From Candidatus Gastranaerophilales bacterium (GTDB lineage Bacteria > Cyanobacteriota > Vampirovibrionia > Gastranaerophilales > Gastranaerophilaceae): DNA of 64,000 nucleotides. How positions within the stretch are numbered: position 1 is the first letter of the stretch; each line of letters starts with the position of its first letter. This document shows, one piece after another, positions 3,014 through 62,912 of this stretch. Location: contig CALVBT010000007.1 in NCBI GenBank assembly GCA_944325885.1, forward strand, positions 1-64,000, given 5' to 3'. The notes beneath the pieces were generated by a model. It was not told where the DNA came from, ran no database searches, and saw only the letters and a list, made by a program, of their open reading frames with translations. The position numbers and the translations under genes were made by a program.

Positions 3014-3187
3014 TTTCATATAGTCAACTGACTCCGACTACTTGTAGAACCTGTGCAATTGGCAAGTCCGTTTTGTTAAACAAGTCCGGCACAGCCAACA
3101 AGTGCATGGGGTCACTTCCACAAAATGCTAGACTTGGCGGCACTCGCACTCCGTGTACACTTCTACAAGCGAAGCCGCCTCAGACAA
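3014..3187 (+). repeat. Family-1 dispersed repeat, copy B (compact canonical copy)
   Basis: A 174-base copy with both ends intact: left tttcatatagtcaactgac, right cttctacaagcgaagccgcc then tcagacaa. Left cttgtagaa is a perfect reverse complement of right ttctacaag. The central block holds two direct copies of caagtccg separated by a gttttgttaaac loop. One reading frame is open across the whole copy. I do not call the 73-codon ORF starting at 3073 a gene. Confidence 0.9.
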
Positions 3188-3193
3188 CTTTAC

Positions 3194-3224
3194 GGGCGGG
3201 AGATTTTCTCCCGCTTGTTTTTAT
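3194..3224 (+). terminator. Rho-independent terminator after the capsid gene
   Basis: Perfect stem gcgggaga / tctcccgc at 3196-3214 with a TTT-T loop, followed by a T-rich tail. A near-copy of the same hairpin occurs at 3450-3476, so the two bracket the family-2 repeat lying between them. Confidence 0.75.
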
Positions 3225-3241: not shown

Positions 3242-3406
3242 AGATAATTGTTAAAAAAAGACCTTTGCATAGTGAATTACAGAATGTTACTTGAACAACA
3301 GCAAGCGAGGTGTGTTTGAGGCTGTTGTACAGCCGAGTTGCCGAGCATTAAGTGAAAGTTATATTCTGTTTGAACGACGCAACAGGTCGGCTTTTAATAA
3401 TTATCT
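3242..3406 (-). repeat. Family-2 structured repeat, copy R (inverted, diverged)
   Basis: On the minus strand the core reads like copies P and Q: an aactcggctgt...acagcctcaaacac core, then pieces matching the Q/P right half down to the aaaggtc end. Its outer arms, agataattgttaaaa on one side and ttttaataattatct on the other, pair with each other, yet differ in sequence from the arms of P and Q. Confidence 0.7.
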
Positions 3407-3449
3407 GCCTGTATAAATCTAACAATTTAACAATGTAAACACTTCACGG

Positions 3450-3476
3450 GCAGGAGATTTTCTCCCGCTTATTTTT
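3450..3476 (+). terminator. Second copy of the gcgggagattttctcccgc hairpin
   Basis: Same hairpin as at 3196-3214 with one mismatch in the stem, followed by ttattttt. It lies just ahead of the connector gene at 3497. Either a duplicated terminator, or the right flank left by insertion of the family-2 element. Confidence 0.6.
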
Positions 3477-3496
3477 AACAAAAAAGGTATACAACA

Positions 3497-6450: not shown

Positions 6451-6618
6451 TAACGAAATCTAATTTTAAAACCTGATACTTCGCTTTTACATAAACTAAT
6501 CTCAACTTAAGGCTCGCAACTCGGCTGTTACACAGCCTCAGACACACTCGCCTTGTAATTGTTTCGATAAGTTTCTGTAAAAAAGCTACGTAAAAGGTTT
6601 TTAAATAAAATTTCGTTA
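6451..6618 (+). repeat. Family-2 structured repeat, copy P
   Basis: Outer arms taacgaaat...aattttaaaacc (left) and ggtttttaaataaaatttcg plus tta (right) are reverse complements over about 23 bases with few mismatches. The core, containing ggctcgcaactcggctgtta then cacagcctcagacacactcg, is nearly identical to copy Q at 58542. An inner hairpin ggctgt/acagcc is at the tip. It lies between the phosphoesterase and the next phage gene. The 6369-6679 gap holds this element and nothing else that I recognise. Confidence 0.85.
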
Positions 6619-16670: not shown

Positions 16671-16778
16671 TTAATATAGTCAACTGACTCCGATTACTTG
16701 TTGAACCTGTGCATTTAACAAGTCCGTTTTGTTAAACAAGTCCGGCACAGGCAACAAGTCCATGGGGTCACTTCCACA
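16671..16778 (+). repeat. Family-1 dispersed repeat, copy D (right end missing)
   Basis: Left two-thirds conserved through catggggtcacttccaca; the right terminal block is absent. A short stub, gatagtcaactgac, recurs at 16811-16824 just before the lysozyme gene, as if a second copy's left end remained. Confidence 0.85.
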
Positions 16779-34877: not shown

Positions 34878-34960
34878 TTTATATGTCAACTGACTCCGAC
34901 CACGTAAGAGCCTGCACCTTCTTAGGCAAAGACAAACTCGGACAAACTACACTTCCAAAA
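34878..34960 (+). repeat. Family-1 dispersed repeat, copy E (degenerate)
   Basis: Starts atatgtcaactgactccgac two bases after the Clp_N gene stop, then diverges (cacgtaagagcctgcacc) and ends acacttccaaaaag. Reduced and mutated. It provides the stop codon of the reverse-strand gene at 34947. Confidence 0.65.
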
Positions 34961-48541: not shown

Positions 48542-48676
48542 ATTTGATATAGTCAACTGACTCCGACTACTTGTAGAACCTGTGCAATTGACAAGTCCGT
48601 TTTGTTAAACAAGTCCGGCACAGCCAACAAGTGCATGGGGTCACTTCCAAAGCTACAAACTGAACCGCCTCAGACA
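48542..48676 (+). repeat. Family-1 dispersed repeat, copy F (shortest full copy)
   Basis: 135 bases. The left 115 bases match copy A almost exactly. The variable and right part is reduced to aagctacaaactgaaccgcc then tcagaca. One frame is open throughout. Confidence 0.9.
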
Positions 48677-58541: not shown

Positions 58542-58713
58542 TACAAAGATATTTTATTTCTCAACCTGATACTGCGCTTTTACATCAACTAATCTCAACT
58601 TCAGGCTCGCAACTCGGCTGTTTACACAGCCTCAGACACACTCGCCTTGTAGTTGTTTTGATAAGTTGCTGTAAAAAAGCTGCGTAAAAGGTTTCTAAAT
58701 AAAATATCTTTGT
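58542..58713 (+). repeat. Family-2 structured repeat, copy Q
   Basis: Perfect 18-base outer arms tacaaagatattttattt / aaataaaatatctttgta, then the core shared with copy P (ggctcgcaactcggctgt, cacagcctcagacacactcg). The core is about 90% identical to P by eye, but the arms are different sequences. Located between anmK and glmU, both leftward. Confidence 0.85.
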
Positions 58714-60833: not shown

Positions 60834-60864
60834 AAAAAAGACCCGAGATTTCGGGTCTTTTTTA
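60834..60864. terminator. Bidirectional terminator after the prepilin gene
   Basis: Stem aaaaaagacccga / tcgggtctttttt with loop gatt. It can end the prepilin transcript and, read on the other strand, the typA transcript. Confidence 0.92.
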
Positions 60865-60865
60865 T

Positions 60866-60910
60866 TTGTCTGAGTCGGACTCAAATAATGTCTGAGGCGG
60901 CCTCAGACAA
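60866..60910. repeat. Short nested palindrome related to family-1 ends
   Basis: 45 bases bounded by ttgtctgag and ctcagacaa. It contains two palindromes, gagtcggactc and tgtctgaggcggcctcagac plus a final a. These match the right end of family 1 (gccgcctcagacaa) in both orientations, so it looks like two family-1 ends joined tail to tail. It lies just beyond the typA stop. Confidence 0.7.
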
Positions 60911-62724: not shown

Positions 62725-62912
62725 TTTCATATAGTCAACTGACTCCGACTACTTGTAGAACCTGTGCAATTGGCAAGTCCGTTTTGTTAAACAAGTCCGG
62801 CACAGGCAACACCAGGTAGGGGCATAAAATCTCGTTTCGACTTTGTCTCAACGGATTTTGCAGCCAGTGCAAGGGGTCACTTCACAAGTTACAAGCGAAT
62901 CCGCCTCAGCCA
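62725..62912 (+). repeat. Family-1 dispersed repeat, copy G (with insert at site 1)
   Basis: Left part as in copies A and B to cggcacaggcaaca, then about 58 inserted bases (ccaggtaggggcataaaatc...) between that point and agtgcaaggggtcacttc, the same place where copy C holds its hairpin insert. Right end acaagcgaatccgcctcagc is slightly mutated. It sits between divergent typA and prs. Confidence 0.9.

Follow-up and report, generated by a model that had tools for sequence, protein, structure and literature searches.

A recently active, gene-less mobile DNA element of Gastranaerophilales that inserts without target duplication and whose orientation follows GC skew

The window analyzed here is the initial 64 kb of contig C7 in a Candidatus Gastranaerophilales genome (G000) that totals 2.17 Mb in 19 contigs. 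An earlier note on this DNA had described a dispersed family of seven copies that share about 110 bases at the left, all in one orientation. The left block (TTTCATATAGTCAACTGACTCCG...GGGGTCACTTCC) or its remnant is present on the + strand at 7/7 of the named places, and the length common to the window copies is about 88–110 nt. The right end (...GCCGCCTCAGACA), which had been taken as common to all seven, is found in copies 1, 2, and 3 and as close variants in copies 6 and 7, whereas copy 4 carries no recognizable right end and copy 5 is a degenerate remnant. Copy 2 (3014–3187) is full-length and uninterrupted and serves as the reference copy. The middles of copies 1, 3, and 7 contain additional hairpin modules: copy 1 (198–419) is a long form with a type X module (CTACCTCTC...GGCAGAG), copy 3 (9299–9546) has both ends full and is interrupted by modules W and X, and copy 7 (62,725–62,912) has full ends and holds a reversed module Y at about 62,812–62,865. 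Of the others, copy 4 (16,671–16,778) consists of the left block only, copy 5 lies at 34,878–34,960, and copy 6 (48,542–48,676) is a short form (about 135 nt) whose right end has diverged. The proposed presence in a prophage is borne out, with copies 2 to 4 lying among genes for major head, terminase, tail-fibre, and endolysin proteins.

Other repeats share the window. A second family, at 6452–6617 and 58,545–58,711, is an imperfect palindrome of ~166 bases (AACGAAAT...ATTTCGTT) whose two copies are 89% identical; a partial inverted copy lies near 3277–3353, and the family is unrelated to the main element apart from the string CCTCAGACA. Two terminator-like sequences (3187–3223 and 3441–3477), 92% identical to each other, flank a copy of this second family, as if its insertion had been accompanied by duplication of ~37 bases. 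In addition, at about 60,863–60,910 the tiny palindromes TTTGTCTGAGTCGGACTCAAA and TGTCTGAGGCGGCCTCAGACA lie side by side and look like the right end of the main element joined to its own reverse complement.

In its uninterrupted form, the main element (TTTCATATWGTCAACTGAC...CTCAGACA) measures about 173–178 nt, and both shorter forms (about 134 nt) and longer forms occur. It is non-coding and encodes no transposase. A long imperfect hairpin spans alignment columns 16 to 104 and is conserved as TGACYCC...GGGGTCA with an inner stem of the CTGTGC/GCACAG type; in copy 2, this hairpin (TGACTCC...GGGGTCA with inner stems) occupies 3029–3114 on the + strand. Across the full structure examined, pairing holds in 94.6% of cells versus 30 to 41% when the structure is slid, and 22 double changes were counted versus 6.1 in shuffles. 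Among the compensatory changes across species, two inner pairs vary between CG, GC, UA, and AU and between UA, GC, and AU, respectively, with zero sequences unpaired at these positions. Such covariation could equally arise from folding as single-stranded DNA or as RNA. A search of Rfam gave nothing above threshold, and no curated covariance model matched.

The ends had been read as imperfect inverted repeats of about 30 bases, built on the complementarity of cttgtagaa at the left and ttctacaag at the right. That complementarity is present in copy 2, but it breaks down between species: the left-hand sequence drifts to GTTGAA, GATGAA, or ATTGAA, whereas TACAAG at the right hardly changes. We rejected it as a functional pairing, and pairing of the ends over 30 bases is likewise not conserved. 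Terminal inverted repeats are at best short and imperfect (GTCaacTGA/TCAGAC).

The hairpin modules sit at fixed points within the element and have conserved feet and variable stems. Module X (CCTCTC...CGGCAGAG) and module Z (CTTGGATT...AAATCCG) are also found outside the element, and module Y (GGCTGC...CCCTACCTGG) lies in opposite orientations in different copies. While Y inserts cleanly (CTAGACT-Y-TGGCGTC and GGCAACA-Y reversed-AGTGCA), X and W, the fourth module type within the element, substitute for a few bases, and Z may insert with a 3-base duplication. Most likely, the extra modules are other small mobile hairpins that inserted into the element. At locus L189 of G011 (198–851, and from 5129 leftwards), the middles are filled by tandem Z modules (CTTGGATTATTGGC...), forming a nested array several hundred bases long.

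Copies outside the window are abundant. Matches within the same genome reach E = 1.5e-81, which excludes chance. BLAST of the window genome returned 49 pieces, equivalent to about 40 clear copies, and a scan of the fetched stretches with an exact 10-base core located at least 61 places when decayed copies are included. These are unevenly spread over the contigs: the largest, the 344-kb contig C1 (L309–L325), has only two exact core matches, and contig C17 has seven in 16 kb. By BLAST, the element is present in 19 of 59 genomes, all 19 in one genus. The covariance model matched 15 of 192 genomes of the order and 4 of 45 genera, mainly the genus of the window and one other genus of the same family (G186 and G191), with only single weak matches in two further genera. 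Relatives of the element are carried by most species of one Gastranaerophilales genus and by one neighboring genus. When a strict pattern was compared with 85,000 species genomes, the titles among the matches listed were mostly Candidatus Gastranaerophilales MAGs, the remaining ones being uncultured bacterium or Clostridia; the strict core pattern had no match in viral contigs. No description of the repeat was found in the literature searched.

The family has spread recently. In G011, 32 of 35 copies are identical over their full length while their flanks diverge abruptly at either end, and many short contigs of this genome terminate in the element. G013 has its own homogeneous type of about 177–179 nt. 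The element is a recently active, gene-less mobile DNA element, and such repeats break metagenome assemblies of gut Gastranaerophilales, which is relevant to anyone binning them.

The mobility proposed in the earlier note is supported by lineage-specific insertions and empty sites as well as by the copies outside the window. Genes of the syntenic region in G001 are 68 to 76% identical to those of the window, and none of the four copies within positions 1 to 20 kb has a counterpart there; the site of copy 4 is a short empty gap with the same two genes on either side. Copy positions are not conserved between G000 and G001. Further empty sites, several of them within one genome, were obtained by joining flanks by script and comparing them with all fetched DNA. 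For example, GCAA-element-ATTATTC corresponds to GCAAATTGTTC and GAGT-element-GTCTTTG to GAGTGTCATTTG, and loci L150 and L168 provide a filled/empty comparison of equal length. These alignments revealed neither target duplication nor evident target loss. Likewise, the left and right flanks of 111 distinct full-length copies agreed about as often as shuffled flanks did at lengths of 2 to 10. In these 111 copies, base bias is limited to about 5 bases on the left, where −1 is A or T only, and 6 bases on the right, where the bias is strongest, with T at +4 in 93 of 111 (84%) followed by +3 (72 of 111). The target is A+T-rich with a one-sided AWTT motif; on the lower strand, this motif reads AAWT and sits 5′ of the element.

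Two single copies deserve mention. L092 (G013:C46:3046–3223) is the sole copy lying between two 39-base direct near-copies of flank, which differ by one mismatch. Copy 2 is 96% identical to the copy at L031 in G001, genes of the same region being 68 to 76% identical; from the sequences, this suggests either interspecies exchange or very strong constraint. G001 carries a different subtype of the element besides L031.

The single orientation of the seven copies holds within the 64-kb window and is a local effect. Genome-wide, copies face both ways, being mixed on contigs C10, C12, and C17 and reversed relative to the window on C2, C6, and C15, and their orientation tracks GC skew rather than genes. 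Neighboring copies less than 40 kb apart agree in 66 of 88 pairs (p 3e-6). Orientation opposes the local GC skew (rho −0.51, 153 copies), with values of −0.48, −0.49, −0.36, and −0.49 in G000, G001, G011, and G013, respectively, and the effect persists with net gene strand in the model (permutation p 2e-4 overall and <0.03 in each genome). Gene strand itself is unrelated to copy orientation (84 versus 83). With third-position skew, the orientation rule was supported strongly in G000 (44/51) and weakly in G013 and was not supported in G001 or G011. Modules Z and X show the same sign relative to skew without significance (n = 35 and 28). The link to replication is more weakly anchored: a ribosomal L14 gene in a G-rich part of contig C1 fits the G-rich strand being the leading strand, two gyrB genes are contrary to it, and the position of dnaA gave no readable replication direction. 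The leading-strand sign depends chiefly on this single ribosomal protein gene. Were the G-rich strand the leading one, the lower strand of the element would be on the lagging-strand template.

We then considered which enzyme could move the element. RAYT-like Y1 transposase genes, a type of gene that the earlier note had proposed looking for, occur in 8 of the 23 congeneric genomes and show no evident link with copy number. Y1 was not detectable in nine copy-rich draft genomes (G000, G003, G007, G008, G010, G011, G015, G186, and G191). Most of the Y1 genes inspected are flanked by unrelated GTAGGTTGGG REPs and not by the element; at L235, L236, L238, L240, L241, and L242, such genes lie near GTAGGTTGGG/CCCAACA palindromes, and palindromes and RAYTs together make up a canonical REP system of this genus that is distinct from the element. 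One Y1 gene of G013 lies between two element copies, but this adjacency looks like chance because the G009 relative of that gene aligns across the junction without the element. The reverse transcriptase domain RVT_1 turned up in no more than 3 of the 23 congeners and was not found in G000, G001, G011, or G013. A search for Y2_Tnp (IS91) gave no match, and its control was likewise silent. A transposase with matching ends had also been envisaged, but a scan of 2.3 Mb of sequence revealed no extended copy enclosing a gene between these ends. It is possible that the enzyme gene was lost from the draft assemblies because identical repeats break contigs.

Overall, we consider it somewhat more probable than not that this is a non-autonomous mobile element of ~173–178 nt, without a transposase of its own, which is mobilized in trans with a single-strand step. 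Insertion without duplication and the replication-linked facing suggest that it jumps as single-stranded DNA. The enzyme would be encoded elsewhere, transposition would pass through a single strand, and the mobile strand would be the lower one, placed on the lagging-strand template. The main argument for single-strand transposition is that AAWT lies 5′ of the element on the lower strand and that this strand would occupy the lagging-strand template, both of which match the mobile strand of IS200/IS605; these are two independent observations that point in the same direction. As to the mobilizer, a more tentative proposal, which we regard as a real but minority possibility, is that it is neither a Y1 (HUH) enzyme nor a reverse transcriptase but an undescribed single-strand, replication-coupled system serving the main element and modules X, Y, and Z.

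The likeness to a MITE or REP-like unit drawn in the earlier note is apt in that the element is dispersed, mobile-looking, and non-autonomous, and it fails in that target-site duplications and a REP tag are missing. A classical MITE, in the sense of a DDE-transposase insertion sequence reduced by deletion and mobilized by that transposase through terminal inverted repeats, would account for many non-coding copies, a recent burst, and the short imperfect inverted ends. We nevertheless judge it improbable, since neither the 111 copies nor the direct empty-site alignments contain a target-site duplication, 2.3 Mb of sequence yielded no larger element bounded by these ends, and a strand rule set by GC skew is not expected of double-strand transposition; with duplications absent and terminal repeats short and imperfect, the element is not a MITE in the strict sense. 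About equally improbable is a REP/REPIN-type repeat that depends for its movement on the RAYT (Y1) enzymes of the genus. The eight congeners with such genes and the G013 gene between two copies speak for it, whereas the copy-rich genomes devoid of Y1, the GTAGGTTGGG palindromes flanking most RAYT genes instead, and the G009 alignment through the G013 junction speak against it. Nor does the element qualify as a strict REP: it lacks the form of a GTAG-tagged palindrome of 20 to 65 nt, and most RAYT genes of the genus are accompanied by other repeats.

Slightly less probable again is an RNA route, with a reverse transcriptase converting a SINE-like or intron-derived element back to DNA. The conserved structure with compensatory changes would suit it, and group II introns are also known to insert without duplication and with a replication-strand bias; the scarcity of RVT_1 in the genus, its absence from the four genomes named above, and the lack of an Rfam match oppose it. 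A conserved structured RNA or terminator with a function in expression, mobility being secondary, seems very unlikely: although copies are mostly intergenic (149 of 167) and the hairpin is conserved across species, flanking genes show no preferred arrangement (36 convergent, 34 divergent, and 35 and 30 co-directional), copy positions differ between G000 and G001, and the structure is not in Rfam. Least likely of all is an attC-like site spread by an integron integrase on folded single strands, which would explain the fold, the missing duplication, the replication-tied orientation, and the head-to-tail modules in places such as L189 but is opposed by dispersed rather than arrayed copies and by the lack of evident GTTRRRY/RYYYAAC ends.

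The trans-mobilized element with a single-strand step, which we favor, can be set beside several known systems. From DDE-type MITEs, it differs in having no target-site duplications of fixed length and no insertion sequence sharing its ends in 2.3 Mb. It shares with REP, REPIN, and BIME repeats and their RAYTs an extragenic location, high copy number, hairpin formation, and mosaic combinations; unlike them, it is much longer, lacks a short hairpin based on a palindrome with a GTAG or CGTC tag, and lives in a genus whose RAYTs mostly carry other REPs. IS200/IS605 elements insert without duplication 3′ to a tetra- or pentanucleotide, have subterminal hairpins, and use the lagging-strand template (PMC6006769, PMC7290912). 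As in IS608 and ISDra2 of this group, our element combines the absence of target duplication with a one-sided short target and subterminal hairpins, and its orientation follows GC skew, the leading-strand sign being weakly anchored. However, it lacks TnpA and TnpB, Y1 is not detectable in most copy-rich genomes, and its target is looser (strongest base 84%) than the fixed tetra- or pentanucleotide of IS200/IS605.

The palindrome-associated transposable elements (PATEs) of Haloquadratum walsbyi are too short for a transposase, have near-terminal hairpins and high copy number, cause no target duplication, and often have other small elements nested inside; their hairpins resemble the ends of an IS605-type transposon in the same genome (PMC3119063). 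Our element shares the first five of these features and differs in that no IS605-type parent sharing its ends emerged from 2.3 Mb of sequence and in that its sequence is unrelated as far as tested. The small mobile repeats (SMRs) of the same archaeon have prominent terminal inverted repeats, no target duplication, and an unknown mobilizer (PMC3119063). Our element is likewise small and free of target duplication, and modules X, Y, and Z behave like the SMR-A elements that insert into PATEs, whereas its own terminal inverted repeats are short and imperfect and its host belongs to a different domain of life. Ever since PATE- and SMR-like elements were described in Haloquadratum, what mobilizes them has been a puzzle (PMC3119063). 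The present family brings a bacterial example to this question: its ends are clean, identical copies have arisen in a fresh burst, the target motif is asymmetric, orientation obeys a rule, and most copy-rich genomes show no detectable trace of the usual enzyme. The occurrence of copy-rich and copy-poor species in one genus makes a search for the enzyme practical. The element resembles the single-strand elements of IS200/IS605 or the PATEs, but by the criteria applied here it belongs to neither of these families.
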